18,271 nucleotides of DNA. It comes from Candidatus Pelagibacter sp. GTDB lineage: Bacteria; Pseudomonadota; Alphaproteobacteria; Pelagibacterales; Pelagibacteraceae. The translations under genes and the position numbers were made by a program. The stretch is from positions 1 to 18,271 of the forward strand of contig JAOHFB010000013.1 in assembly GCA_028097785.1 (NCBI GenBank), given 5' to 3'. The notes beneath the pieces were generated by a model. It ran no database searches. It was not told the origin of the DNA and was given only the letters and a program-made list of their open reading frames with translations. Of the stretch, positions 4,289 to 18,029 are shown one piece after another (the stretch's first letter is position 1; each line of letters begins with the position of its first letter).

Positions 4289-5113
4289 ATGACTGATAAA
4301 AAGCCAGAACTTAGTGACGCAATGAAGAAAAAACTGAAGCCCAGAAAGTTCATTAAAAATCCAATTTTAGGAACAAAATTTACTATAGCAATTTCGAGTG
4401 CCAAAGGTGGAGTTGGTAAATCTACTTTTGCAACAAATCTTGCGTTAGCTTTAAAACAAGTTGGCTGTAAAGTTGGTCTACTCGATGCTGATATTTATGG
4501 TCCATCAGTTCCAAAGATGTTTAATATAAATGAAAAACCTAAAAGTGATGGTCAAAAACTAGAACCAATAATTAAATATGACATTCAGTGTATGTCCATA
4601 GGTTTTTTAGCAGATCAGCAAACTCCAATGATCTGGCGTGGCCCTATGGTTACCAGTGCAATTAAAACTTTTACTCAAAAAGTTAATTGGAAAGATTTAG
4701 ATTTTATAATTGTCGATATGCCTCCAGGAACAGGTGATACACAGTTAACTTTTTCACAAGAAATAAAAATGGATGGTGCAATTATAGTCTCAACTCCTCA
4801 AGAAGTGGCTTTATTAGATGTTAAAAGAGGTATTAAAATGTTTGATAAACTTGGAGTAAAAATTTTAGGGCTGGTGGACAACATGAGTTATTTTACTGGA
4901 GATGATGGCAAGAAATATAAAATTTTTGGTGAAGGTGGTGTTAAAAAAACTGCAGAAGAATTTGAAAAAGAATTTCTAGGCGAGATACCTATTAATCCTG
5001 AAGTTGGAAAATGTGGTGATGAAGGAAAGCCTATAGTTGAAGCTAATCCTGAACATGAAATTTCAAAAATATATTTAGATTTTGCAAATAAAATTAAATC
5101 AACTTATCTTTAA
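4289..5113 (+). CDS. mrp: Mrp/ApbC-type P-loop ATPase (Fe-S carrier family), short form
   Basis: 274-aa MinD/Mrp-type ATPase; relatives bind a bridging [4Fe-4S] cluster as dimers and pass it to apoproteins. The deviant Walker [12 protein letters not shown] lies at residues ~37-47. [35 protein letters not shown] and [17 protein letters not shown] (Walker B) are all typical of Mrp. Two differences from the textbook protein are visible. The N-terminal MIP18/DUF59 domain of longer Mrp proteins is missing, replaced by about 30 basic residues. The segment after NMSYF reads [12 protein letters not shown] with no CxxC pair, which normally ligates the cluster. The last 20 bases overlap the convergent thyX end. 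The family call is firm; Fe-S function is less certain given the missing cysteines. Confidence 0.93.
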
Positions 5114-6041: not shown

Positions 6042-6049
6042 GATTGTTA

Positions 6050-6077
6050 TTGAATCTGTTGTAATTCCTTTTATATT
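6050..6077 (+). promoter_or_regulatory. Probable sigma-70 promoter of ssrA
   Basis: TTGAAT (6050-6055) and TATATT (6072-6077) are separated by 16 bases on the plus strand. A start about 7 bases later would coincide with a small GTTGG/CCAAC hairpin at 6084-6097 that could form the 5' end of the pre-tmRNA. The opposite strand has TTGGAA/TATAAA about 15 bases apart in the same segment, which could serve thyX, so the two promoters appear to overlap back-to-back. Pattern-based only. Confidence 0.45.
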
Positions 6078-6083
6078 AATAAT

Positions 6084-6343
6084 GTTGGTTTTCCAACTAC
6101 GACGATAAACGAATTTCGTAATAACCATTGCGGACGTGGGGGCAGTACCCACCACCTCCACCATTACAACTCATGGGGGTGAACTAGATTCGACGGGTGA
6201 CTAAAGGCTATTCTTTCGTTCGGGATTGTTCCACCGTGACGGGCAAATTTATAATTGCTAACGAAAGTTACGCACTTGCTGCCTAATTAACTTTGTTAAT
6301 TAAGTAGACGGGGTTTGGGGCACCTGGCAACAGAACGCCCCTT
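6084..6343 (+). ncRNA. ssrA: tmRNA gene, circularly permuted two-piece alphaproteobacterial form
   Basis: tmRNA rescues stalled ribosomes by adding a degradation tag. The gene is permuted: the acceptor piece comes first. In it GCGGACGTGGG leads into a 5-bp T stem (6136-6140 with 6148-6152, 7-base loop GGCAGTA), then acceptor strand CACCTCC (6153-6159), A, and an encoded CCA (6161-6163). An 11-base spacer (6164-6174) follows, then the coding piece starting GGGGGTG (6175-6181). That strand pairs with CACCTCC over 7 bp with one G-U pair, and continues AACTAGATTCGACGGG as in all tmRNAs. TTCGTT in the coding piece is complementary to AACGAA in the acceptor piece, consistent with P2. The tag frame (6257-6286) reads ANESYALAA then stop; the stop lies in a perfect TAATTAAC/GTTAATTA hairpin. 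The 3' end is a GGGGC/GCCCC hairpin at 6317-6341. Exact processed ends are estimated. Confidence 0.93.
6319..6343 (+). repeat. Left att core (3' end of ssrA)
   Basis: Begins GGCACCTGGCAACAG and ends AACGCCCCTT. It is identical over 25 bases to 17879-17903, and the bases on both sides differ between the copies. It forms the loop and 3' strand of the terminal GGGGC/GCCCC hairpin of the tmRNA coding piece, so an element carrying this sequence restores a functional ssrA on insertion. This is the usual logic of integration at tRNA and tmRNA 3' ends. Confidence 0.8.
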
Positions 6344-6393
6344 AACTATCCATGATTCTTTAATCATAGCAACAGTTCCAGAAAGCAATAATC

Positions 6394-6438
6394 AAAAAGA
6401 CGTTCATAGGACGTTATTTAGAAAGTGGAAAGGACGTT
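6394..6438 (+). repeat. Left subterminal repeat with GACGTT motifs (candidate integrase arm sites)
   Basis: Three copies of a (G/A)GACGTT motif start at 6398, 6409 and 6432; the last is directly before the integrase ATG. The first 28 bases (6394-6421) align with 17770-17798 near the right end, with about 23 of 30 aligned positions equal, including an exact CGTTATTTAG. Such repeats just inside both att cores are expected for a tyrosine recombinase with an arm-binding domain. The last motif overlaps the integrase translation start region, so binding could also repress int. Confidence 0.55.
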
Positions 6439-7443
6439 ATGGCATACATAAGAGTTAAGCGTGGGAAGTTTAAAGTTGAGATAAATAAAAAAGGTTATCC
6501 AAGAGTTTTTAAATCATTTCATACAATCAAGGACGCTAAGAAATTTGCAAAAGAAGTGGAGTCGCAAATGGAAAGACAAGTGTTTGAGGATTACTCTGGG
6601 GCAAGAGGAATTACTCTTAAAGAAATTTTAATTAAATATAGAGATAAAAAAACTGTAAATAAAAAAGGTGTAAGAGAAGAAACTTCCACTATTAATTTTT
6701 TAATTAAACATAAGATCAGTTTAAATTCATTAATGCGGTTGAAATCACACCATATTCATAAGCTAATGAATGAATTGGGTTCTACCAGGAAACCATCAAC
6801 CGTTAAGAAGTATGTAGTTATCATTTCTCATGCCTGGCGTGTAGCAAGGAAAGAATGGGGAATTAATTTACCACCAGAAAATCCTTGTGACATGGTTACA
6901 CTTCCAAAAGTCAATGACGCTAGGGACAGAATACTATCTAAATCTGAATATGTGTTGCTCCTAGAGTCTTGTAGAAATTCACATTTAAACATTTTAGAGG
7001 ATATTGTGGTTTTTGCTTATTCTACCGGTGCAAGACAGGGAGAAATATTAAGGCTCACCCAAAACAATATTGATTATGAAAAAAAACTAATAACCTTTTT
7101 AGATACTAAAAATGGACAAGACAGAACAATCCCTGCGCCAGACAATGTATTAAACATTCTAAAAAAATATAGATTTGGAAAAAAAGTTTTTAATATTGTT
7201 GCCAGAAGATTAAGAAAACATTTTAAGATCGCTTGTATAAAAGCAGGAATTGCAGATTTTAGATTTCATGATCTAAGAGCTTGTTTTTGTACCAATGCTT
7301 TATTGAATGGCTGGAGCATTGCAGAAGTATCTACAGTAAGTGGACATAAAGATTGGTCACAATTAAAAAGATATACAAGAATTAAACCTGCAGATTTATT
7401 AGATAAAATAAATAAGGTTAATGTAGTTAAATTAATTGGATAG
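6439..7443 (+). CDS. int: Tyrosine recombinase (phage-type integrase)
   Basis: 334-aa site-specific recombinase expected to join the element's attP to the ssrA attB. The catalytic set is complete: R199 in STGARQGEILRL, K224 in DTKNGQDRTIP, H277 and R280 in FRFHDLRACF, H303 in VSGHKDW and the nucleophile Y312 in KRYTRI. The first ~60 residues (YIRVKRGKFKVEINKKGYPRVFKSFHT...AKKFAKEVE) have the beta-rich look of an arm-type DNA-binding domain. Residues ~60-155 form the SAM-like core-binding domain. It starts about 95 bases after the ssrA end and reads away from it, the standard placement of int beside attL. GGA lies close to the ATG, but the ribosome-binding site is not strong. It appears intact, so the element may still be mobile. 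Confidence 0.94.
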   Translation: MAYIRVKRGKFKVEINKKGYPRVFKSFHTIKDAKKFAKEVESQMERQVFEDYSGARGITLKEILIKYRDKKTVNKKGVREETSTINFLIKHKISLNSLMRLKSHHIHKLMNELGSTRKPSTVKKYVVIISHAWRVARKEWGINLPPENPCDMVTLPKVNDARDRILSKSEYVLLLESCRNSHLNILEDIVVFAYSTGARQGEILRLTQNNIDYEKKLITFLDTKNGQDRTIPAPDNVLNILKKYRFGKKVFNIVARRLRKHFKIACIKAGIADFRFHDLRACFCTNALLNGWSIAEVSTVSGHKDWSQLKRYTRIKPADLLDKINKVNVVKLIG

Positions 7444-7447
7444 TCCT

Positions 7448-7529
7448 AGAGTTTAAAGGTTTCCGAAAACGCATAGCAAATTCAAGGGAACTATTCCAAA
7501 TTAACATTAGTAGGAAACTTTTAAATTCT
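7448..7529 (+). repeat. Long imperfect inverted repeat directly after int
   Basis: Left arm 7448-7464 (AGAGTTTAAAGGTTTCC) pairs with right arm 7513-7529 (GGAAACTTTTAAATTCT) over 17 positions. The two non-Watson-Crick positions would both be G-U pairs in the plus-strand RNA. The 48-base loop holds a small GGAA/TTCC hairpin. It starts four bases after the int stop codon. There is no T tract after it, so it does not look like a simple intrinsic terminator. It could control int mRNA stability, as sib does in phage lambda (analogy only). Confidence 0.55.
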
Positions 7530-7532
7530 GTA

Positions 7533-7548
7533 TAAGACAGACACACAC
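7533..7548 (+). repeat. CA-rich motif, copy 1 of 2
   Basis: TAAGACAGACACACAC matches 9460-9475 at 15 of 16 bases. Both copies lie in the intergenic DNA just upstream of an element gene, one before the 100-aa/primase pair and one before the 219-aa gene. They could be shared operators or replication-protein sites. The function is unknown. Confidence 0.5.
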
Positions 7549-7566
7549 GAACAAAGAAACAATAAT

Positions 7567-7593
7567 CATTAATCACGAAACATTAATCACGAA
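7567..7593 (+). repeat. Tandem 13-bp direct repeat (iteron-like)
   Basis: CATTAATCACGAA occurs twice, at 7567-7579 and 7581-7593, one base apart. It is followed by a GAGTT/AACTC hairpin (7601-7605 with 7610-7614) and then the start of the 100-aa gene. The period of 14 bases and the position before a primase operon fit either an operator or a small iteron set at an origin. Neither role is shown. Confidence 0.5.
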
Positions 7594-7640
7594 CCCTTTC
7601 GAGTTTGGGAACTCATAACAATAAAAAAAGGTAGTTATTA

Positions 7641-7943
7641 ATGACCACTAAAAAAGTCGTATCTGACTTAAAAAAGATAATACAAATACAAGAAAAGATA
7701 ATTAAAAAACAAGAGAATGAACATAAAATGGTTCATCGACTATTCATTCATTATTTGAATAGATTTGAGGAGTTTTTTCATAAGTATAAATTCCACAGAA
7801 AGCTATGGCTACACTCAGTAAATGACTTCAATGAATTTACTAGAGCTATTTTGCACCCCAATAAAAAGGAAAATATCAAAGGTAAGAAATACGGTGCTAG
7901 AGATTTCCCGATAATTATTAGAGAGGGTAAAGATGATAAATAA
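7641..7943 (+). CDS. 100-aa protein of unknown function, coupled to the primase-like gene
   Basis: Not recognised. The first ~30 residues are a charged helix with heptad-like spacing (VVSDLKKIIQIQEKIIKKQENEHK), likely a short coiled coil. A middle section rich in H, F and R follows (MVHRLFIHYLNRFEEFFHKYKFHRKLWLH), and the tail is basic. There is no signal peptide, membrane helix or clear helix-turn-helix. A good ribosome-binding site (AAAGGTAG) sits 8 bases before the ATG. Its last 11 bases overlap the start of the primase-like gene, so the two are translated together, and a partner, loader or regulator of replication is possible. Small size and position after int would also suit an excisionase, but no sequence feature supports that. 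The reading frame is convincing; the role is not known. Confidence 0.8.
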   Translation: MTTKKVVSDLKKIIQIQEKIIKKQENEHKMVHRLFIHYLNRFEEFFHKYKFHRKLWLHSVNDFNEFTRAILHPNKKENIKGKKYGARDFPIIIREGKDDK

Positions 7944-9444
7944 TTTTACAGATGGTGCTCCAAGGACTGCTAAAGAATGGCAAGACTTAGGTTATGAAGT
8001 TATCCCTTGTAATAGCGAGGGTGTTCCAATCATTAAAGGTTGGGATAAAGACCTTTACGATTCTAAAAAAATTACAGTACCTGCAGATTACATGGAAAAG
8101 AAAAATATTCCTGGTGTGTGGGGTGTAAGGTTAGAAAAGTTAGTTGATCTTGATATTGACAATCCAATACTACAAAAATTTTTAGGCGACATAATTTGTG
8201 GTGCTAAGTTTGGAAGAAAATCAAATCCTATAAGTCACTTATTATTTGAGGGTGTAACAGAATACGAGAGTGTAGTTGTGCCACAAGCATTTGAAAAATA
8301 TTTTAAACAGTTTCCGCATGGTCGAGTGTTGCTAGATATAAGACATGGACAAGATCGTTTCACATATGTGCCTGGTGGATTAAGACCACATAAAAAAAAT
8401 GCAGGTGCAGAAGTTTTGGATTGGATTCACTTCACAGGTTTCATGAAGTACGACACACGAACCAATGCTTTAATGAAAGAGATCTGTTTAAAGACTGCAT
8501 TGTCTGTAATGTTTCCTGCTACAGGTCAACGAGATGTATTTATTACTGCAATAGCAGGTATTTTTGCAAAACATACAGATTGGACAGATGAGAAGATAAA
8601 TCAATTTTGTTTTGATCTTGCTTTTAAATCTGGCTCAGACAATCCATCAAGGTATGCGAGTAAAGGAACTGATGCACGAAAACCAGAGAGCAAACATTTT
8701 GGAATTCCTAAACTTGCAGAAGTTTTAGAAGTTACTCCTGCAGATGTTTCAAAATTATTTAGCTGGGTTGGTGTCAAGGACGCCTCATCAATGTTCTCTG
8801 ACTTAGTTGTATATAATACTGAACCAAAACAATGGCGATTGAAATTTAAAGATCATTGGATTGATATATGGGACACTTCAATATTGCTTTCATATACCAA
8901 AGTAAAAGTTTTAATTTTGGAAACTTGTATGGAAGAACCACCAGAAATAAAACCAAATGATTGGAAAGTCATTCGGATGCAATTACTGCAGAGTGTAAAA
9001 AAAGAAGATGCTCCACCAGAAAGTTCTTATTATGGAATTGTAACAGGAATGTTAATTGAATGGTTTAAAAGAAAATCTTCAAATGCAAATGATGTATATG
9101 ACGACGCAAGATATAACCTGCTTGATAATTGGGGGTGTGTTTATTATGACCATCATTATTGGGTTAAATCTGAAGCAGTTATAAAGCACTTAAAAATACA
9201 AGGACAATCAATAGATGTTAGGAAAGTGGCTCATTTATTTAGAACTGAATTTAATGCTGAACCTACTAAAATCACATTATCAAAAAAAGAGATTAGATGT
9301 TGGAAGATACCCAAAACCAATATTGATGGTTCAAGTGCTGATAATATTGGATCTAATGAACAGTACGAAAAAGCCTATAAGGAGTTTAAAAAGAATAAAG
9401 AAGAAAGATTAGGTCGAGGCTTGTTTGATAAAAATAATTATTAA
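7933..9444 (+). CDS. Primase-polymerase-like replication protein (PrimPol, no helicase domain)
   Basis: 503-aa protein whose first ~170 residues resemble the bifunctional primase/polymerase domain of plasmid, phage and satellite replication proteins. These include AKEWQDLGYEVIPCNSEGVPIIKGWD, a GVWGVRLEKLVDLDID strand with acidic residues D74 and D76 as the probable metal-binding DxD, H102 in ISHLLFEG, and LLDIRHGQDRFTYVPGGLR (133-151). The next block (ATGQRDVFITAIAGIFAKHTDWTDEKI...GIPKLAEVL, ~196-267) resembles the helical region after PrimPol domains. The C-terminal ~220 residues are not recognised. No Walker A motif is present, so it is not a primase-helicase fusion; a host or helper-phage helicase would be needed. 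The ATG is preceded by GAGGGTAAAG and overlaps the upstream gene by 11 bases. The family call comes from motif order and is moderately sure. Confidence 0.75.
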   Translation: MINNFTDGAPRTAKEWQDLGYEVIPCNSEGVPIIKGWDKDLYDSKKITVPADYMEKKNIPGVWGVRLEKLVDLDIDNPILQKFLGDIICGAKFGRKSNPISHLLFEGVTEYESVVVPQAFEKYFKQFPHGRVLLDIRHGQDRFTYVPGGLRPHKKNAGAEVLDWIHFTGFMKYDTRTNALMKEICLKTALSVMFPATGQRDVFITAIAGIFAKHTDWTDEKINQFCFDLAFKSGSDNPSRYASKGTDARKPESKHFGIPKLAEVLEVTPADVSKLFSWVGVKDASSMFSDLVVYNTEPKQWRLKFKDHWIDIWDTSILLSYTKVKVLILETCMEEPPEIKPNDWKVIRMQLLQSVKKEDAPPESSYYGIVTGMLIEWFKRKSSNANDVYDDARYNLLDNWGCVYYDHHYWVKSEAVIKHLKIQGQSIDVRKVAHLFRTEFNAEPTKITLSKKEIRCWKIPKTNIDGSSADNIGSNEQYEKAYKEFKKNKEERLGRGLFDKNNY

Positions 9445-9459
9445 TAGTTATTATTATAC

Positions 9460-9475
9460 TAAGACAGACAGACAC
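9460..9475 (+). repeat. CA-rich motif, copy 2 of 2
   Basis: TAAGACAGACAGACAC, differing from 7533-7548 at a single base. It lies 16 bases after the primase-like gene and about 220 bases before the 219-aa gene. Confidence 0.5.
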
Positions 9476-9529
9476 TTATAAAGTGATGACCGAATTTTAT
9501 AATTTCTAGTTTATTAATAAGAATGATAA

Positions 9530-9621
9530 AAAAGGTTTGTTAGTAATAACACCTTTTACTGATTAGGGGCGTTTGATCACCGCCTCTGATCTGAATAAGT
9601 TTTAGGGGTTACCCTCAGATC
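9530..9621 (+). repeat. Cluster of three hairpins between the primase-like and 219-aa genes
   Basis: Three inverted repeats follow one another. The first is AAAAGGT/ACCTTTT (9530-9536 with 9551-9557), with GTTA/TAAC inside. The second is AGGGGCG/CGCCTCT (9565-9571 with 9581-9587, one G-U pair). The third is GATCTGA/TCAGATC (9588-9594 with 9615-9621), enclosing AGGG/CCCT. The first would look like an intrinsic terminator on the minus strand (followed there by six T), although no minus-strand gene ends here; on the plus strand it could weakly terminate the primase operon. The dense structure and relatively GC-rich patch stand out. A replication origin, packaging signal or leader RNA for the next gene are possible readings. 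Confidence 0.55.
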
Positions 9622-9692
9622 CCTTTAAAAAAGAAAAAAATTCAAAAAAGTAAGGGTTTATTAAAAATATTTAAAATAATTTAAGGGAACAT

Positions 9693-10352
9693 ATGCAAGA
9701 AGATATGACGGATAGATTAGTAAGACTTACTAAACTTTATGATGATGATAGTCCCGTGGTCAGTGATCCAAGATCCATGGAACAAACATTAGAAGATTTT
9801 AAAGCACCAGTAAAAAAACCAAATGCAACAGAATTAGAAAGAATTTTGACTCGACCAAAGCCCTCACAGACTCGTAGAGAACCATTGAAAAAGAAACCTA
9901 ATACCAAGGTTGTAAAATCTAAGGAGGATTTAGAAGAGGACTTTAAGGTAATAGAAATACCTATAATAATGAAAGAGTTTGAGGAATGGATCAAAAATAA
10001 CCCAGGAAAAGAATTTAGAGAATTCCTAAAAGAGCAGGAATACATAAGAAAACAAGACGAACAAAAATTTAAGGACATAGTGCTGGCAGGCGCCCTTGGA
10101 AAGATTGATGATGCTATGTCTGGTATAATGTCAATGGCTATGGGTGGTATTATCAGAGATCCTAGTTACACCTATTACAGCGATGGTGGCAGTGCAAATA
10201 AACCAAAAGATCCAGCAACAAAAATTAAAAAATTAAATTTGGCAGATTATTTCCAATATGGGATGAAGATTGCAGACCTTACTGAGTCTGAAAGAGAAGT
10301 GGTTAATGATCTTCTTAAAAAATCCTTTGGAAAAAACTACTCTGATAAATAA
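9693..10352 (+). CDS. 219-aa hypothetical protein of the element
   Basis: Not recognised. The N-terminal ~90 residues are charged and low in hydrophobics (LKKKPNTKVVKSKEDLEEDF), probably disordered. Residues ~93-130 form a helix rich in E and K. The middle has a small-residue stretch, LAGALGKIDDAMSGIMSMAMGGII (131-154), followed by RDPSYTYYSDGG (155-166). The C-terminus (LNLADYFQYGMKIADLTESEREVVNDLLKKSF) looks like a folded helical tail. Short GG-I/V...YxDGG segments occur in structural or internal virion proteins of marine podoviruses, so a virion-associated or helper-interacting role is conceivable, but this is recall rather than a search. It starts 8 bases after AAGGG, converges on phoB with 42 bases between them, and is the last gene before the Pho cluster. 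Confidence 0.75.
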   Translation: MQEDMTDRLVRLTKLYDDDSPVVSDPRSMEQTLEDFKAPVKKPNATELERILTRPKPSQTRREPLKKKPNTKVVKSKEDLEEDFKVIEIPIIMKEFEEWIKNNPGKEFREFLKEQEYIRKQDEQKFKDIVLAGALGKIDDAMSGIMSMAMGGIIRDPSYTYYSDGGSANKPKDPATKIKKLNLADYFQYGMKIADLTESEREVVNDLLKKSFGKNYSDK

Positions 10353-10394
10353 TAAAGATTAAAGAAGACTGAGGCGTGGCTAGTTATTAAGAAA

Positions 10395-11075
10395 TCAATT
10401 AAGTGAATAGCCTGCTGATCTTACAGTTCTAATTAATTCTTTACTTCCTTTTAGATTAATATTTTGTCTTAATCTTCTTATATGGACATCGATAGTTCTC
10501 GTTTCAACATTAATATTTTCTGACCAAACATTTTCAAGTAATTGTTCTCTTGAATAAACTCTTTTAGGATTTTTTATAAAGAAATTTAATAACTCATATT
10601 CTTTAGGTCCAAGATGAACCTCTGTATCTTTTCTGTAAACACGTCGTGTCATTCTATCTATTTTTAAATCATCAAATAAAACTGTATCTGAAATGACAGA
10701 TGGTTTAGATCTCCGCAAAAGTGCTTTTATACGAGCTAAAAGTTCAGGGAAGCTAAAAGGTTTTGTTATATAATCATCAGCACCTGAGTTAAGTCCTTTA
10801 ACTTTGTCTTCTTCTTCTCCTTTTGCGGTTAACATAATAATAGGAAGATCTTTAAATTTAATATCTTTTTTTAGGTTCTTACAAATTTCTACTCCAGAAA
10901 AATCGGGTAGCATCCAATCTAACAAAATAAGATCAGGTAATTTCTTTTTTATTTCTTTAATGCCATCATTACCATTATCTGAATAAGAAACTTTATAACC
11001 TTCTTTTTCTAAATTGTATTTGATTAATGTAATAATTGGTTCCTCATCTTCAATTATATAGATATTAGCACTCAT
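10395..11075 (-). CDS. phoB: Phosphate response regulator PhoB
   Basis: 226-aa OmpR-type response regulator that, when phosphorylated by PhoR, activates Pho-box promoters. The receiver domain has the acidic pocket E9/D10/E11, phospho-acceptor D53 in LILLDWMLPDFSG, T83 in MLTAK and K105 in ITKPF. The C-terminal winged-helix domain (~130-226) includes LGPKEYELLNFFIKNPKRVYSREQLLENVW, VETRTIDVHIRRLRQNI and the final RTVRSAGYSLN, all very PhoB-like. Its start overlaps the phoU stop as ATGA, so it is the last gene of the phoR-to-phoB cluster. It converges on the 219-aa element gene and no clear terminator separates them. Confidence 0.96.
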   Translation of the reverse strand: MSANIYIIEDEEPIITLIKYNLEKEGYKVSYSDNGNDGIKEIKKKLPDLILLDWMLPDFSGVEICKNLKKDIKFKDLPIIMLTAKGEEEDKVKGLNSGADDYITKPFSFPELLARIKALLRRSKPSVISDTVLFDDLKIDRMTRRVYRKDTEVHLGPKEYELLNFFIKNPKRVYSREQLLENVWSENINVETRTIDVHIRRLRQNINLKGSKELIRTVRSAGYSLN

Positions 11076-11773
11076 GAATTTGAGTCAAAATCTTTTCCTT
11101 TAGGTCTGGCTCCTTCTATATGCTCACCTTCAATTAAATAAAATAATGACTCAGCAATATTAGTTATATGGTCGCCTGCTCTTTCAATATTTTTTGTTAC
11201 AAAAAGTAAGTGCGTAGCTAAATCTAAATTTTTTTTATCTTTACCTAAAAAATCTGCAACTTCATTCATGGCTGTATGCGTTAAATCATCAACTTTTTCA
11301 TCAGTTTTCCAAATTTTTATCGCTAACTCTTTTGATTTTTTTAAGTACGCATCAAGAATATCTTTTAATTGTCTTTGTACCAAGTCACCTAATCTTCTTA
11401 AACTTGCAATTAATTCCTCAGGTAAATCATGTGGAAGAGGTTTAATCTTTTTAGCAACACTTTTTGCTAAATCACCGATACGTTCTAAATCACTAGAAAT
11501 TTTTAATGTTGATATGGTGAGTCTTAAATCAATAGCCATCGGAGCTCTCTTTACAAGCACATTAACTATTTGTTCTTCAATAGTTGCTCTTAATTCATTG
11601 ATCTTAGCATCATTTTTAATAATATTTTCTGCAGCATCTTTATCAACTTTAATGATTGCTTCCATTGAATCTGAAAGTTGTGTTTCCACTAAACTTCCCA
11701 TTTTAATCAAATTATCATTTAAGTTTTGAAGTTCTTCTTCATATGATTTAACTATATGTGATATTTCTGACAT
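11072..11773 (-). CDS. phoU: Phosphate signalling protein PhoU
   Basis: 233-aa all-helical protein with two PhoU repeats, about residues 8-110 (SYEEELQNLNDNLIKMGSLVETQL) and 115-220 (KDILDAYLKKSKELAIKIWKTDEKVDDL). Both contain the metal-binding-type D/E patterns; LKISSDLERIGDLAKSVAKKI in repeat 1 and TKNIERAGDHITNIAESLFYLIEGE in repeat 2 are signatures of PhoU. It links the Pst transporter to PhoR, keeping PhoR in its repressing state when phosphate is plentiful. The ATG directly follows the pstB stop (TAAATG) and its end overlaps phoB, so translation is coupled on both sides. Length is normal. Confidence 0.96.
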   Translation of the reverse strand: MSEISHIVKSYEEELQNLNDNLIKMGSLVETQLSDSMEAIIKVDKDAAENIIKNDAKINELRATIEEQIVNVLVKRAPMAIDLRLTISTLKISSDLERIGDLAKSVAKKIKPLPHDLPEELIASLRRLGDLVQRQLKDILDAYLKKSKELAIKIWKTDEKVDDLTHTAMNEVADFLGKDKKNLDLATHLLFVTKNIERAGDHITNIAESLFYLIEGEHIEGARPKGKDFDSNS

Positions 11774-12541
11774 TTATCCAAACCTCCCTGTGATATAATC
11801 CTGGGTCATTTGATTACCAGGGTTTTTAAATATTTTTTCAGTTGTATCTACTTCAATTATTTTTCCTAAATGGAAAAAACCTGTTCGCTGAGAAACTCTT
11901 ACGGCTTGTGACATTGAATGAGTAACAATTACTATTGTATAACTTTTTTTTAGTTCATCAATTAATTCTTCAATTTTAGCTGTTGCTATAGGATCTAAAG
12001 CAGAACAAGGTTCGTCCATCAATATTACCTCTGGATTTACAGATATAGCTCTTGCTATACATAATCTTTGTTGTTGTCCTCCAGAAAGACCTGTTCCTGG
12101 TTCATCCAGTCTATCTTTTACCTCTTCCCATAATGCTGCTTTTTTTAAACTATTTTCAACAATTTGATCCATATCAGATTTATTATCTGCTAGGCCATGA
12201 ATAGATGGACCATATGAAATGTTGTCATATATACTTTTTGGAAATGGATTAGGTTTTTGAAAAACCATTCCAATTGACTCTCTTAATCTTACTACATCAA
12301 TATTATTATCAATTATTTCCTTATCATCAATTTTAATTGATCCTTCAATTTTACAAATATCAATAACATCATTCATTCTATTGATGCACCTTATAAAAGT
12401 TGATTTTCCACAACCTGATGGACCAATTAATGCTGTAACTTCTTTACTATGAATGTCTAAATTTACATTAAATAATGCTTGTTTTTTCCCATAGTAAACA
12501 TTCAAGTCTTGTGCTTTTATTTTAACGTTATTGCTTATCAT
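11774..12541 (-). CDS. pstB: Phosphate ABC transporter ATPase PstB
   Basis: 255-aa ATP-binding subunit that energises high-affinity phosphate import through PstC/PstA. Visible are Walker [10 protein letters not shown] (residues 40-48), the Q-loop VFQKPNPFP (Q95), the ABC signature LSGGQQQRL (152-160), Walker [15 protein letters not shown] (171-184) and the switch histidine in [17 protein letters not shown] after Walker A is typical of PstB. Two starts are possible: 12547 (MVMISNN) and 12541 (MISNN). The second is chosen because AGGA is then 8 bases upstream, whereas it would be only 1-2 bases from the first. Its ATG shares a base with the pstA stop (TAATG), so translation is coupled. Confidence 0.96.
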
Positions 12542-13800
12542 TACCATTTCCTTTCAAATTTTTGTCTTAGGTAAACTGCTATAAAATTTAATGTAATTAG
12601 AAAACTTAAAAGTATCATAATAGTTGCAGATGTTTTCTCTACAAAACCTCTCTCAGCTTGTTCAGACCATAAATAGACTTGAACAGGTAGTGATGCAGAT
12701 GGATCTGTGGGTATTGAAGGTATATCAACTACAAATGCTACCATTCCTATCAAGATTAGTGGTGCTGTCTCACCTAAAGCTTGAGCTAATCCAATAATAG
12801 TACCAGATAAAGTTCCAGGAATTGCAAGAGGAACAACATGGTGCATTACTGATTGAACTTTAGAGGCACCTACCGCTAATGCACCTTCTCTTATTGATGG
12901 TGGCACAGCCTTTAAAGAAGCTCTGCAAGGAATAATAATTCTAGGTAACGTCATCAATGCAAGAGTAATACCAGCAACTAGAGGAGTTGATCTTGGTAGA
13001 TCAAATGTGCCAAGTAAAATTCCTAAACCCAATAAACCAAATACAATTGATGGAACTGCTGCAAGATTATTTATATTAATTTCTATAAAATCAGTAATTC
13101 GATTTTTAGGTGCAAATTCTTCTAAATATATTGATGCAAATATAGCAATAGGAAAAGATAACAACAAAGTTATAATTATAGTAAAGAAAGATCCAACTAA
13201 AGCTCCACCAATACCAGCAAGTTCTGGGTTTCTTGAATCACCTTTTTGAAATAGATAATTATTAAAAATTTTATCAATTTTATTTTGTTCAACTAACTTG
13301 TCGTACATCATTAACTGAAAATCATTAATTCGTCTTCTGTCTTCAGGTAAGTGTCTTGGGTAATTTCCTTTATGCAATTGATCCATATCATCAGAGGCAG
13401 TTAATTTTAAAATAGTTTTCTTATTTATAAATTCAGGGTTTTTAATTAGAAAATCTCTTACTTCGTATTCATAATCAGGACTAAATAAATTAATTAATGC
13501 TTTTTCTTCTTTTAAACCATTGACTTGATAAACTTTTAATAAGCTTTCAATTGCAAGATCATAATACTCAACATTCTCTAGATCATCTTTGGAAGGATTT
13601 GGGTCTAAATATAAAGAGTCTAAGGTAAAATTAATCTCAACATTTATAATTGTTTTTTGAAAAGCGCTACTACCTTTAGAAAATATTACGTAAATTAAAA
13701 AGACAACAAATAAAATTGCTAGCACAACTGAAGTGATGCCATAAAGCTTAAATCGCTTTTCTGCATTATATCTTTTTTTTATACGTTCTTCTTTAGTCAT
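12541..13800 (-). CDS. pstA: Phosphate ABC transporter permease PstA, with N-terminal extension
   Basis: 419-aa inner-membrane permease. After a cytoplasmic basic start there is one membrane helix ([19 protein letters not shown]). A soluble stretch of roughly 150 residues follows ([21 protein letters not shown]...[19 protein letters not shown]). Then comes the usual permease core with [40 protein letters not shown] and the EAA-type loop [27 protein letters not shown]. The long N-terminal part resembles the DUF3333-type extension of alphaproteobacterial PstA. The frame runs back to a TTG at 13824, but the ATG at 13800 (MTKEERIKK) is preferred. It overlaps the pstC stop by eight bases (TATGACTAA), giving tight coupling. 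Confidence 0.94.
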
Positions 13801-15196
13801 ATTTTTCTCTATATTTTTTAACAAATCTTAAGGCGATGTAGTTTAAAATTAACGTTGCAAAGAAAAGAGTTAATCCCAAAGCAAAAGCTGATTGAGTTTT
13901 TGGACTATCAAACTCTTGGTCTCCAACCAAAAGCATAACAATCTGTGTTGTAATAGTAGTTGTAGACTCTAAGGGATTTATTGTTAAATTTGCCGCTAAC
14001 CCTGCTGCCATTACAACAATCATAGTCTCACCTATAGCTCTTGATACAGCTAACAAAATAGATCCGACTATTCCTGGTAAGGCCGCAGGTATGACAACTC
14101 TTTTAATTGTTTCAGACTTTGTTGCCCCAACAGCATAAGAGCCATCTCTTAATGATTGAGGTACAGAATTAATTACATCGTCTGATAACGATGATACATA
14201 AGGAATAATCATCACTCCCATAACTAATCCTGCTGCAAGCGCACTTTCAGATGAAACTTCAAGACCAAGCTTTTCACCAAATTCTCTAAAAAAAGGACCT
14301 ACAGTAAGAGCTGCAAAAAAACCATATACGACAGTTGGAATACCAGCCAATATTTCAATAATAGGTTTTGAAAATTTTCTAACCTTAATACTTGCGTACT
14401 CCGCCATATAAATTCCAGAAAATAATCCTATGGGAACAGCAACAGTCATTGCAATCAAGGCTATGAAAGCCGTACCAGCAAAGAGCGGTACAGAACCAAA
14501 AGCATTTTTTAAATCAGCATATTCTTCTGCAGTAATCGCCGATGCATCTCTAACAAAAGCTCTTTGAGGACTCCACGAAGTACCAAATAAAAAATCAAAA
14601 ATATTTATTGCTGAAAAAAACTTTATACTTTCAAATAACAGAGAAAAAATAATCCCAAGAGTGGTCAGTATTGCAACTAAAGAACAAGCAAAAAGTAATC
14701 CAGTTAAAATTTTTTCAACATCATGTCTTGCTTTATTATTTTTTGAAATTCTTTTTATTCCATAAGTAATTGTTAAAACTGCTGTTGATAATAACAAAAC
14801 TACTTTTGAAGATTGAGCAATTGATAAAAATGATTTGTAATCTTCAGCCCCTTGTTTAATTTCATTTGTAATTTTTCCTGAGAAGTTTCCATTATAAAGA
14901 GATACTATTTTTTGATAAATTAGATTTATTTGATCACTCGTATATACATTTAACTCATTTTGACTTAATGTTTGTGAGATTAATCCCTTAATAATTGAAG
15001 CTTCAAATATAGACCAAACTAATAAAATTATTAGTGATGGTAACGCACACCATAAGGCCAAATAATATCCGTAGTAATTAGGTAATGCATTAATTTTGAT
15101 TGATTGACTAGTGGTAATTTTTTTAATTCTTGATCTTCCATATATAAATGAAGTGTAACTAAATATTCCAATCAAAATTAAAATTACTAAATTCAT
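13793..15196 (-). CDS. pstC: Phosphate ABC transporter permease PstC
   Basis: 467-aa inner-membrane permease, longer than the ~320-aa E. coli protein because of an N-terminal region with extra hydrophobic helices (residues ~2-18 and ~43-68) and a soluble loop. The permease core includes FGTSWSPQ, GLFSGIYMAEYASIKVRKF, KPIIEILAGIPTVVYGFFAAL and the EAA-type loop AALPGIVGSILLAVSRAIGETMIVVMAAG, which couples to PstB. Together with PstA it forms the phosphate channel. Its ATG is only about 25 bases from a Pho box, and it is separated from pstS by a terminator, so it heads its own transcript pstC-pstA-pstB-phoU-phoB. Confidence 0.95.
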   Translation of the reverse strand: MNLVILILIGIFSYTSFIYGRSRIKKITTSQSIKINALPNYYGYYLALWCALPSLIILLVWSIFEASIIKGLISQTLSQNELNVYTSDQINLIYQKIVSLYNGNFSGKITNEIKQGAEDYKSFLSIAQSSKVVLLLSTAVLTITYGIKRISKNNKARHDVEKILTGLLFACSLVAILTTLGIIFSLLFESIKFFSAINIFDFLFGTSWSPQRAFVRDASAITAEEYADLKNAFGSVPLFAGTAFIALIAMTVAVPIGLFSGIYMAEYASIKVRKFSKPIIEILAGIPTVVYGFFAALTVGPFFREFGEKLGLEVSSESALAAGLVMGVMIIPYVSSLSDDVINSVPQSLRDGSYAVGATKSETIKRVVIPAALPGIVGSILLAVSRAIGETMIVVMAAGLAANLTINPLESTTTITTQIVMLLVGDQEFDSPKTQSAFALGLTLFFATLILNYIALRFVKKYREKYD

Positions 15197-15221
15197 TTTA
15201 ATGGGACACTATGATTTAAAT

Positions 15222-15239
15222 GTTACAATTTTGTTACAA
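15222..15239 (-). promoter_or_regulatory. Pho box upstream of pstC
   Basis: On the minus strand, TTGTAAC-AAAA-TTGTAAC: two identical 7-base units 4 bases apart, an 11-base period matching the direct-repeat architecture of PhoB sites. It would occupy the -35 position, with CATAGT (about 15213-15208) as a possible -10. This implies PhoB control of pstC-pstA-pstB-phoU-phoB and autoregulation of phoB. Confidence 0.8.
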
Positions 15240-15260
15240 AGTTAAACTGTAAATTGAAAA

Positions 15261-15293
15261 ATAAAAAAAAGACCAGAAATTAATTCTGGTCTT
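15261..15293 (-). terminator. Intrinsic terminator after pstS
   Basis: Perfect 10-bp stem AAGACCAGAA/TTCTGGTCTT (15269-15278 with 15284-15293) with a 5-base loop. Read on the minus strand, the transcript from pstS meets this hairpin 19 bases after its stop and then a run of eight T (15270-15263). It separates pstS from pstC and lies just upstream of the pstC Pho box. Confidence 0.88.
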
Positions 15294-15311
15294 AATTTTA
15301 TATAAACTCAA

Positions 15312-16337
15312 TTACTTGATAGATATAGTTTCTAGTTTAAGAGCGGCAGTTCTAATAGCTTTATATTTATCTTTAGCTAAAGGAACCAAACCTATTTCTG
15401 CCAAATACCCTCTAGGGCCCATTGCCTTTTTGGAAGTAAAAGTTTTCACAAATTCCTCAATTCCTGGAACTACTCCAATATGTGCTTTCTTAACATAAAA
15501 GAATAAAGGTCTAGCAATCGGGTAAGAATAATCTTGAATACCTTCAAGACTTGGTTTTACACCATTGATAGTTGCTGCTTTAATTTTATCTTTGTTAGCC
15601 ACTAAATAACTATAACCAAAGAAACCGTAAGCATCAGGATTTGAAGCAAGTTTTTGAACTATTAACGTATCGTTCTCTCCAGCTTCAACTGCATAACCGT
15701 CTTCTCTCATTTTAGCACATTCTTTTGTAGCTTTTTTTCCGTTAGCTTCAAAAAGAGATTTAGCTGCTTTTGAACAACCTTTACCCATAACTAATGAATT
15801 CCAAGCATCTCTAGTTCCAGATGTTGGTGGTGCAATTAGTATTTCAATTTTTTTTGAGGGAAGACTTGAATCAATATCGCTCCATTTTTTATATGGATTA
15901 ACAACTAATTTTCCATCTACATCTACTTCATGTGCTAAAGCTCTCCACAATTGTTCTTTAGAAAAATCAATATCAGGAGAGTTAACTGAATGTGCAAAAG
16001 AAATACCATCATTACCAACAACTATTTCTATAATTTCAGTAACACCATTTTTTTTACATAATGCTTTTTCTTTAGATTTAATTGCTCTTGATGCATTCGT
16101 AATATCAGGGTGGTTTGTACCAACACCAGCACAGAATAATTTCATTCCGCCACCAGTACCTGTGCTTTCAATAACTGGTGTTTTAAATTTTCCAGTTTTA
16201 CCAAAAGTTTCAGCAACTACAGTTGCATACGGGTATACTGTAGAAGATCCTACTATTTTAATTTGATCTCTAGCCTGAGCATTAAAAGCAAAAATTGCAA
16301 ATGCTAAAACTGATAATGTTATCTTAATGTGTTTCAT
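15312..16337 (-). CDS. pstS: Periplasmic phosphate-binding protein PstS
   Basis: 341-aa substrate-binding protein of the high-affinity Pst importer. Signal peptide: KH-K start, hydrophobic core LSVLAFAIFAFNA, probable cleavage after AQA (residue 22). The mature part begins DQIKIVGSSTVYPYATVVAETF. STGTGGGMKLFCAGVG, DITNASRAIKSKE, VGNDGISFAHS and IAPPTSGTRDAWNSLVMG carry the Ser/Thr/Gly/Arg phosphate-binding loops typical of the PstS family. The C-terminal part (FFGYSYLVANKDKIKAATING and YPIARPLFFYVKKAH) is also standard. AGGA lies 9 bases before the ATG. It has its own Pho box and is followed by a terminator, so it can be made in excess over the permease, as expected for a binding protein. Confidence 0.95.
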   Translation of the reverse strand: MKHIKITLSVLAFAIFAFNAQARDQIKIVGSSTVYPYATVVAETFGKTGKFKTPVIESTGTGGGMKLFCAGVGTNHPDITNASRAIKSKEKALCKKNGVTEIIEIVVGNDGISFAHSVNSPDIDFSKEQLWRALAHEVDVDGKLVVNPYKKWSDIDSSLPSKKIEILIAPPTSGTRDAWNSLVMGKGCSKAAKSLFEANGKKATKECAKMREDGYAVEAGENDTLIVQKLASNPDAYGFFGYSYLVANKDKIKAATINGVKPSLEGIQDYSYPIARPLFFYVKKAHIGVVPGIEEFVKTFTSKKAMGPRGYLAEIGLVPLAKDKYKAIRTAALKLETISIK

Positions 16338-16406
16338 TATATTTTTTCCTATTTTAGTTTACAGACTAGAATTAATATTTTTATATTGACGTTTTATTAC
16401 TAAATT

Positions 16407-16424
16407 ATGAAAGTTTTGTTACAA
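16407..16424 (-). promoter_or_regulatory. Pho box upstream of pstS
   Basis: On the minus strand, TTGTAAC-AAAA-CTTTCAT: two 7-base units 4 bases apart. The first is identical to the pstC site, and the second is close to the classical CTGTCAT. A TAATAA about 8 bases downstream could be the -10. Further upstream, GTTAC and GTAAC (16428-16432 and 16418-16422 on the plus strand) form an inverted repeat that may add a weaker PhoB half-site. Confidence 0.75.
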
Positions 16425-16451
16425 AAAGTAACTTTTTGGTTGTAATAAATT

Positions 16452-17495
16452 TTATGATTTAGGGAATTCTATAATAAATTCAGTTCCCTTGCCCTCTTCA
16501 CTGAAGATTTCCATCCGAGCTTTATGTTGATTTACTATATGTTTCACAATAGCGAGACCTAGTCCAGTGCCTCCAGCTTCTTTACTGCGAGCAGGATCGA
16601 CTCTAAAAAATCTCTCAGTGATTCGTGGCAAATATTTTTTAGGAATTCCTACACCCTGATCTTTAATGGAAAATAAAAAGATTTTATCTTTATCTGTAAG
16701 TGAAATTTTTATAGTAGAATTTTCTTCACTATACTTGCAAGCATTATCAATTAAGTTAGTAAATACTTCAATTAGTCTATTTCTATCACCTAAAATTACC
16801 CAATCATTACCTTCAACAATATATTCAATTTTTATTTTTCTTTTTTTGACTAAATCTGAATTAATTTCTAAAACATGGCTAATTATATCGTTTAGATCTA
16901 CTTTATTATTTGGTCTAATATGTTCTTGTAATTCAATTTTAGATAAAGAAAGCAAGTCACTAACTAAATTTTCCATTCTTGATGTTTGTTTAAGTATTAT
17001 AGGTAAAAACTTTTTTTGGCTTTCAAAATCATTCGTTGCATGGCCTTCGTTAATTGTTTCCAAACCTAACTTAATTGATTGTAGCGGAGTTCTTAACTCA
17101 TGAGATACATTTGCAACAAAATCAGATTTAAATCGTTGAGTTTTATAAATTTCTGTCAAATCTTTTAAAAAAATTATTACAGATTGATCTTCACTACAAA
17201 GTTTAGAAGGACCAGGAATTATATTTGCTTTATAAAATTCAAAAATTGGTAACTTAATTTCAATATCAACAATTTTAGTTTTTTTATCAATTATAGCTTG
17301 ATCTATACTCTCTAAAAGATTTGCATCTCTTAAGATTAAGGAAATATTTTTTCCCTCAATATCATTACCAAATCTAGTTAAGGCACTATTATTTGCACAA
17401 CAAACATTTTTAGATTTATCTAGAATAATTACTTGATCTATCATTTCATCAAGGAATTTCATTTCTTGAAAACCTGTTTTATCTAATGAACTCAT
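16452..17495 (-). CDS. phoR: Phosphate sensor histidine kinase PhoR, form without membrane helices
   Basis: 347-aa histidine kinase that phosphorylates PhoB when phosphate is scarce. A PAS domain covers ~12-112 (FLDEMIDQVIILDKSKNVCCANNSAL). The dimerisation domain has FVANVSHELRTPLQSIKLG with phospho-acceptor H132. The ATPase domain has the N box FTNLIDNACKYS (245-256), G1 DQGVGIP (279-285), F box ERFFRVD and G2 GGTGLGLAI (308-316). PhoR proteins usually start with one or two membrane helices; none is present, and a stop codon lies in frame about 40 bases upstream of the ATG, so this is not a missed start. The protein is probably cytoplasmic or held at the membrane by PhoU/PstB. It is the first gene of the Pho cluster, 114 bases before pstS. 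It is named from context plus domains. Confidence 0.9.
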   Translation of the reverse strand: MSSLDKTGFQEMKFLDEMIDQVIILDKSKNVCCANNSALTRFGNDIEGKNISLILRDANLLESIDQAIIDKKTKIVDIEIKLPIFEFYKANIIPGPSKLCSEDQSVIIFLKDLTEIYKTQRFKSDFVANVSHELRTPLQSIKLGLETINEGHATNDFESQKKFLPIILKQTSRMENLVSDLLSLSKIELQEHIRPNNKVDLNDIISHVLEINSDLVKKRKIKIEYIVEGNDWVILGDRNRLIEVFTNLIDNACKYSEENSTIKISLTDKDKIFLFSIKDQGVGIPKKYLPRITERFFRVDPARSKEAGGTGLGLAIVKHIVNQHKARMEIFSEEGKGTEFIIEFPKS

Positions 17496-17628
17496 AAAAT
17501 TTAAACCTGAGAATATATCCCTAAAAGTTTTTCACAATCCAAGACTACCAAATCATGAACCATGAGTCTATTTGCTTTAAACTAGCTATTTGATTGTTGA
17601 ATTAGTTTGAAATTTTGAAAAAATTTTT

Positions 17629-17699
17629 ACCCCCTACGTCTAAGCAAAACTGCCTAATACACTGAGAGTAGAAGCTACTCCTTTCTATTTTGAGGGGGT
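17629..17699 (-). ncRNA. Candidate structured RNA or leader upstream of phoR
   Basis: A closing stem ACCCCCT/AGGGGGT (17629-17635 with 17693-17699, 7 bp) encloses two hairpins. One is GAGTAG/CTACTC with a 3-base loop (17666-17671 with 17675-17680). The other is AGGCA/TGCTT with a 4-base loop in the minus-strand sense (17655-17651 with 17646-17642, one G-U pair). Together they form a three-way junction. The G-U pair favours the minus strand, which runs toward phoR, about 130 bases downstream. It matches no family I recognise. It could be a cis-regulatory leader, a small RNA, or DNA structure near attR. Confidence 0.4.
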
Positions 17700-17760
17700 T
17701 AAGGATTTCTTTAAAAGCCTATCTCGAAACCCACATGGTACCTCTATTTATTATCTAATC

Positions 17761-17798
17761 ACGTCCTCTAAAAAGGACGTCATGGAGTCGTTATTTAG
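17761..17798 (+). repeat. Right subterminal repeat with GGACGT motifs (candidate integrase arm sites)
   Basis: ACGTCC (17761-17766) and GGACGT (17775-17780) form a 6-bp inverted pair. 17770-17798 aligns with the left-end segment 6394-6421, with AAAAA, GACG, TCAT and CGTTATTTAG shared in order. The sequence AAAGGACGTCATGG also differs by only one base from AAAGGACGTTATGG at the integrase start. Confidence 0.5.
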
Positions 17799-17878
17799 GC
17801 TTGAATATCGAGTCCTCAGCCCATAGGATATGTATTGAAACTGTTTGTTTTATTAAAGATTTATGAGACATAGTTCAC

Positions 17879-17903
17879 GGCACCTGGCAACAGAACGCCC
17901 CTT
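17879..17903 (+). repeat. Right att core, exact copy of the ssrA 3' end
   Basis: 25 bases identical to 6319-6343. Sequence upstream is unrelated to ssrA, so this is only the crossover segment left at the far junction, not a second tmRNA gene. DNA to the right should be the original chromosome downstream of ssrA. Confidence 0.8.
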
Positions 17904-18008: not shown

Positions 18009-18029
18009 GGGGCGAGAAACAGAACGCCC
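18009..18029 (+). repeat. Degenerate third att-like copy
   Basis: GGGGC at 18009-18013, then after a shortened middle AACAGAACGCCC (18018-18029), which is identical to 12 bases of the att core. It keeps the GGGGC...GCCC hairpin potential. It lies about 105 bases past the right att, suggesting the scar of an earlier insertion at ssrA. Confidence 0.5.

Follow-up and report, generated by a model that had tools for sequence, protein, structure and literature searches.

A probable integrative element at ssrA of a SAR11 bacterium with a complete Pho operon as passenger

The window, the whole stretch of 18,271 nucleotides analysed here (contig JAOHFB010000013.1, Candidatus Pelagibacter sp.), has its nearest relatives in SAR11, Pelagibacteraceae. 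Its sequence indicates that positions 6319-17903 very likely form one integrative mobile SAR11 element, located at the transfer-messenger RNA (tmRNA) gene ssrA, in which a four-gene core carries a whole phosphate (Pho) operon as passenger. SAR11 genomes vary in holding high-affinity phosphate uptake, and such an element would be a concrete way for the phosphate trait to pass between related cells. The window is called W in trees and identity comparisons, its 219-amino acid protein is called p219 and its integrase INT.

Borders of the element and the empty site

The integration target ssrA is a permuted tmRNA gene at positions 6046-6344 of the + strand. It matches the Rfam model alpha_tmRNA at full length (model positions 1-355 of 355, 220.8 bits), and its 3' end is the core of the attachment (att) site. 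The left core attL (6319-6343, +) and the right core attR (17879-17903, +) are exact 25-bp copies on the same strand and the sole matches in the window when up to three mismatches are allowed; two core matches appeared in none of 200 shuffles. This confirms an earlier note on this DNA, which had reported an exact repeat of the ssrA 3' end around 11.6 kb. The distance from core to core is 11,560 bp, and the 11 genes enclosed, four on the + strand and the seven Pho genes on the - strand, are all open frames. The earlier note had held that an att copy between the p219 gene and phoB would confine the mobile unit to its left part; no third core copy was found there with up to three mismatches. A degenerate core, AGAAACAGAACGCCC, was spotted by eye at about 18014-18028, immediately beyond attR.

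Arm-type repeats are found at both ends. On the left, AGGACGTTAT is present twice (6408-6442, +) and matches AAAGGACGTCATGG and CGTTATTTAG of the right end, where AGGACGT on both strands and CGTTATTTAG are located at 17758-17798. The shorter word GGACGT occurs five times in the window, four times near the two cores within the insert and once in ssrA. When the left end was compared with its own right end and with 16 right ends of other elements, its own right end was the best match (rank 1 of 17).

The empty site is found in the relative G071. The window flanks, fused through the core, align with this genome over 447 bp at 92.4% identity with 3 gap positions, and ssrA is followed there by a single core, to which the right flank of the window is joined. 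Across the 19.9 kb of G071 examined, neither the integrase nor the Pho genes had a match. A genome in which ssrA is directly followed by the right flank, as the earlier note proposed to look for, therefore exists. In G001, ssrA is followed 637 bp further by a second core and then by the same flank. This chromosomal right flank (17904 to about 18052; 93% identical to G071 and 92% to G001) holds one GAAGTTTTACAC repeat and the degenerate core, and from these sequence traces it is probably what is left of an older ssrA cassette that has collapsed.

A second core was present downstream in 9 of the 20 ssrA loci first examined. At ssrA of G044 and G077 stand cassettes whose two ends carry GAAGTTTTACAC repeats (L165, L166), and no gene matching INT was found in them. 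The scanned proteins of the G044 cassette are of a type I-like restriction-modification system (N6_Mtase with Methylase_S, and ResIII), and the G077 cassette is likewise of the restriction-modification kind. Eight IMG/VR contigs (L207-L214) contain an exact 21-base att core, each with a permuted tmRNA gene whose tag ends in ADENLALAA (ARAGORN), so that the core occurs in virus-labelled contigs too.

Ancestry of the Pho operon

Judged by gene identities and by trees, the Pho operon is foreign to the host lineage. The trees included the window and 20 of 35 genomes, the remainder having lacked genes, had incomplete ones or been set aside. In the Pho tree, made from five Pho proteins, W is grouped with G001 (100/100), while in the backbone tree (17 rows, ThyX and Mrp only) it is grouped with G024 and G035 (99/97). 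Between W and five relatives, its closest by backbone among those sampled, ThyX is 93-96% identical and Pho only 72-74%; in the 10 other pairs with ThyX identity of at least 92%, Pho reaches 87-98.5%. For W and G001 the values are 98% for the Pho proteins and 86% for ThyX. The nucleotide identity of these two is 93-97% from phoB to pstC, 94% for pstS, 78% for phoR and 75-80% for five backbone protein genes. Near position 16200, inside pstS, it falls from about 95% to 70-84% in pstS and phoR; read from this profile, the drop is a recombination breakpoint within the cargo.

PhoU was present in 201 of 399 genomes of the genus, many of which are incomplete. Among the matches listed, its identity falls into classes near 90, 75, 66 and 54%, a distribution which suggests several Pho lineages within one genus.

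The operon as a cassette in G001

The operon of the window recurs in G001 with homology to positions 10389-17532 (92.0% identity over 7,157 columns). There the operon has the intact tRNA-Leu at 17638 on one side and a duplicated 5' tRNA-Leu part at 10063 on the other, and is bracketed by a 41-bp exact repeat. The ACAGGAGCA repeats lie inside both ends of this cassette and are unlike the repeats of the neighbouring modules. No gene matching INT was found in the cassette. Att sites bound the operon both in the window and in G001; a single Pho lineage is thus carried as cargo at two such sites, whose arms differ. The earlier suggestion that the Pho genes are mobile cargo is supported by this second att-bounded cassette, together with the empty site in G071 and the foreign ancestry of the operon. 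The integrase-bearing element, together with the cassette in G001, constitutes a specific, testable vehicle for Pho transfer.

The surroundings of this cassette (G001:C10; L215/L216) consist of tandem modules bounded by 5' tRNA-Leu fragments at 4565, 6014 and 10063, each with its own arm repeats. The modules bounded by the copies at 4565 and 6014 contain a 341-residue gene without a Pfam family, and polysaccharide-lyase and trypsin-like genes.

It is possible, with about an even chance, that the Pho operon is a habitual traveller in SAR11, one lineage moving between species both on the autonomous int-primpol-p219 element at ssrA and, as in G001, in a tRNA-Leu cassette that has no integrase of its own and is served in trans. 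High-affinity phosphate uptake would then be gained, swapped and lost via site-specific recombination. Repeats bracketing the Pho genes were sought in 55 of 80 related Pho loci with 20 Markov resamplings per locus. Five of the 55 loci exceeded their resamplings: L001 (that of G001) is real, L016 and L070 are artefacts of slicing where phoR sits at the contig end, and L052 and L076 are marginal. Habitual mobility is weakened by this result, as just one tested locus besides the window is bracketed by repeats. The earlier note had proposed a way in which phosphate genes could have become patchily distributed among marine bacteria; such a route is opened by the present findings, but that the distribution arose by it is not shown by convincing repeats at a single locus.

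Core genes of the element and relatives without Pho

INT is a tyrosine recombinase of 334 residues (6439-7443, +; Pfam Phage_integrase, E 5.7e-21; PHROGs integrase). Its residues R199, K224, H277, R280, H303 and Y312, which we take to be the catalytic ones, are invariant across 20 aligned sequences. It is followed by an open frame for a 100-residue protein (7641-7943, +), in the place of which G251 has a 93-residue gene, and by a prim-pol-type primase of 503 residues with a C-terminal winged-helix-like part (7933-9444, +), for which no sequence relative was found in the PDB. The conserved protein p219 (9693-10352, +) has 228 homologs and adjoins the primase in G251 and G271. Neither p219 nor the 100-residue protein gave a convincing match to any known family in Pfam, PHROGs or NCBIfam, and the predicted structure of p219 is poor (mean pLDDT 57).

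A complete core element of 4.5 kb without Pho is found at tRNA-Met in G251. It consists of integrase (31% identity), the 93-residue gene, primase (42%) and p219 (44%), located between tRNA-Met repeats of about 60 bp that are 4,486 bp apart. G271, whose contig begins inside the primase, has primase (66%), p219 (46%) and an ssrA core about 490 bp further. A cousin of 6.2 kb in G191 shows ssrA, integrase (54%), small genes, a gene like the C-terminus of p219, a 733-residue gene and a second core. In the window, Pho is located between p219 and the right end, and therefore reads as added cargo.

Several collections were searched for the core proteins. A p219 protein of 96% identity is encoded on a 1.39-Mb contig of Candidatus Pelagibacter bacterium nBUS_49, which might serve as a laboratory system; SAR11 isolates bearing nBUS names appear in the available text of PMC12816887, where nBUS_49 itself did not occur. 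Among 150 relatives of G032, p219 gave only one match, already known. When INT, the primase, p219 and PhoU were each used as single-sequence queries against IMG/VR, no relative was confirmed. Alignment searches of the same collection gave no relatives for p219 and 152 for the primase, of which the 80 listed align to the N-terminal approximately 300 residues at 33-40% identity. In phage records nothing matched the primase, p219 or the junction stretch, and INT matched 622 records, every one below 60%. The 11 genes between the cores gave no match to Pfam conjugation families, and no capsid or conjugation gene was recognised in the element.

Genes and regulation of the Pho operon

The Pho genes were named with NCBIfam models and their curated cut-offs. 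All seven are on the - strand: PhoB, the response regulator (10395-11075, TIGR02154), PhoU (11072-11773, TIGR02135), PstB (11774-12547, TIGR00972), PstA (12541-13824, TIGR00974) and PstC (13793-15196, TIGR02138) are above cut-off. PstS (15312-16337, TIGR02136; PBP_like_2 in Pfam) and the sensor kinase PhoR (16452-17495, TIGR02966) have these models as best matches but below cut-off. An intact tyrosine recombinase, a replication-type gene and the complete phoR-pstSCAB-phoU-phoB set, which the earlier note had placed inside the repeats, are thus borne out, with this limit for PstS and PhoR.

Two Pho-box-like sites were found on the - strand, scored against the Pho-box consensus. The site before pstC, TTGTAAC-AAAA-TTGTAAC (15222-15239), has a score of 14 of 14, the highest in the window, with 0.0 expected; that before pstS, TTGTAAC-AAAA-CTTTCAT (16407-16424), has 13 of 14, with 0.63 expected in the window. 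Similar sites stand in at least three related loci, with one preceding pstS in L001, L027 and L069. No other site scored at least 13 in the window, and thus none precedes int, where it would tie phosphate to excision. Upstream of phoR, the sequence at 17517-17595 recurs across SAR11 genomes (37 blast matches in the loci examined), its copies often standing right before a start codon and several before genes beginning MKKLLG.

Proposed mechanism and alternative explanations

In the proposed mechanism, the integrase would recombine the att site of the element with the 25-bp 3' end of ssrA, leaving ssrA whole and producing another 25-bp copy at the opposite end. The integrase may still be able to excise the element, and the prim-pol could copy the excised circle. 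Given that neither conjugation nor capsid genes were recognised, the element might travel as a hitchhiker in phage particles or vesicles. The recipient would gain, or replace, high-affinity phosphate uptake controlled by PhoR-PhoB, and the Pho-box-like sites would move along with the operon.

Several observations weigh against a single mobile element of this kind. It was seen in integrated form only and on a single contig, and G071, with its empty site, is a relative (about 92%) and another strain than that of the window. No close p219 was found among the 399 genomes of the genus, and viral_contigs gave no match to a 27-mer of the junction between p219 and phoB. The first rank of 17 for the arm match is modest when taken alone: in a control with 14 left ends, which include G044 and G077 with one arm type in common, seven ranked their own right end first, three second or third, and four at rank 6-11, perhaps because the two cores of these four belong to different elements. 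Convincing bracketing repeats are limited to the G001 locus among the 55. Moreover, several other SAR11 pairs have Pho closer than the backbone (for G023 and G028, ThyX is 82% and Pho 98% identical), which means that ordinary recombination at the usual locus spreads Pho too.

The unit could also be a composite, in which an int-primase-p219 element and a separate Pho cassette lacking an integrase were inserted side by side at ssrA, followed by deletion of the att site between them. Pho would then not be the original cargo, though the unit is now one bracketed element. The parts for such an event exist: integrase-less restriction-modification cassettes occur at ssrA in G044 and G077, the Pho operon is itself an integrase-less cassette in G001, the cores are in tandem at nearly half of the 20 ssrA loci, and a served cassette could have arms in common with its helper. 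However, no remnant core with up to three mismatches lies between p219 and phoB, and homology with the Pho block of G001 begins just 37 bp after the p219 stop, against about 490 bp from p219 to the core in G271, so that the deletion would need to be neat. We consider this history unlikely, though it deserves attention. Far less probable is an assembly chimera that joined an integrase half and a Pho half from separate molecules. The junction is on a single contig and has no independent sighting, but the arms of the two ends match each other and no repeat of at least 16 bases that could cause a misjoin is listed across it. In addition, the right half alone, with Pho, arms, core and ssrA flank, places Pho at the ssrA att site, so that Pho would belong to an ssrA element even if the assembly were chimeric. 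The earlier note had offered as a second reading that Pho stood beside ssrA in an ancestor and was enclosed by later insertion. This can be given almost no credence. None of 80 related Pho loci, 67 of which extend at least 3 kb beyond phoB, has ssrA, tmRNA or ThyX as neighbour, and hence the proximity of Pho and ssrA is not old; Pho directly after ssrA in relatives, which that note would have counted against mobile cargo, was accordingly not found. Past phoB, 54 of these 67 loci instead show a gene group with Fur-like, ABC and ZnuA-like (zinc-uptake) proteins. The site in G071 without Pho and the foreign origin of the operon also speak against it.

Comparison with known systems

Among the papers listed in literature searches that covered few subscription journals, none described a SAR11 element integrated at ssrA or a tRNA gene with a Pho operon inside. 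The available parts of several papers allow comparison of the single integrative element preferred here. In PMC12636525, pstSCAB-phoU, phoB and phoR are core in coastal SAR11 genera and present in 55% of offshore genomes; horizontal transfer is called plausible there, and the text available gives no vehicle. Transfer rates are treated in PMC12416821 and SAR11 hypervariable regions in PMC2217521, as far as the accessible text goes. For the phosphate islands of HIMB59 (PMC10734472), homologous recombination is suggested because no tRNA or insertion sequence (IS) marks are noted in the portion available, and in two SAR11 genomospecies Pho is found in one flexible island at one position (PMC7318151, in part). 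These islands resemble the present case in that pst-pho is variable and exchanged in streamlined marine bacteria. However, they occupy, according to those portions, one fixed genome position, while in the window Pho is enclosed by att repeats, arms and an integrase.

Phage satellites such as PICMIs, in the accessible description (PMC10803314), are likewise small, with an integrase and a replication-type gene and no conjugation genes recognised, and the element is probably helper-dependent as they are. No packaging gene was recognised in it, where two proteins, p219 and the 100-residue one, match no known family convincingly; it differs in having no known helper phage and in carrying a 7-kb host nutrient operon. 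No match to the conjugation families of Pfam was found inside its borders, where an integrative conjugative element has conjugation genes. The features of a site-specific integrative element (tDNA genomic island) are all present: the target is whole, the displaced fragment forms a direct repeat, an integrase is enclosed and a relative has the empty site.

Tycheposons were reportedly first described in Prochlorococcus. According to the part of PMC10872708 available, they also occur in Methylophilaceae, have tRNA-gene borders (one of seven in Prochlorococcus) and range from 4 to 200 kb. The element shares with them a tyrosine recombinase inside the borders and nutrient cargo, the Pho operon being contained in 11.56 kb, within that range; in addition, a relative of its core (G251) is located at tRNA-Met. 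The target here is the tmRNA gene ssrA and not a tRNA gene, the host is SAR11 and the cargo is a full Pho operon. The likeness is drawn from described features and not from kinship of the recombinase or core genes. On these features, a tycheposon-like variant with new cargo is the most fitting description of the element.

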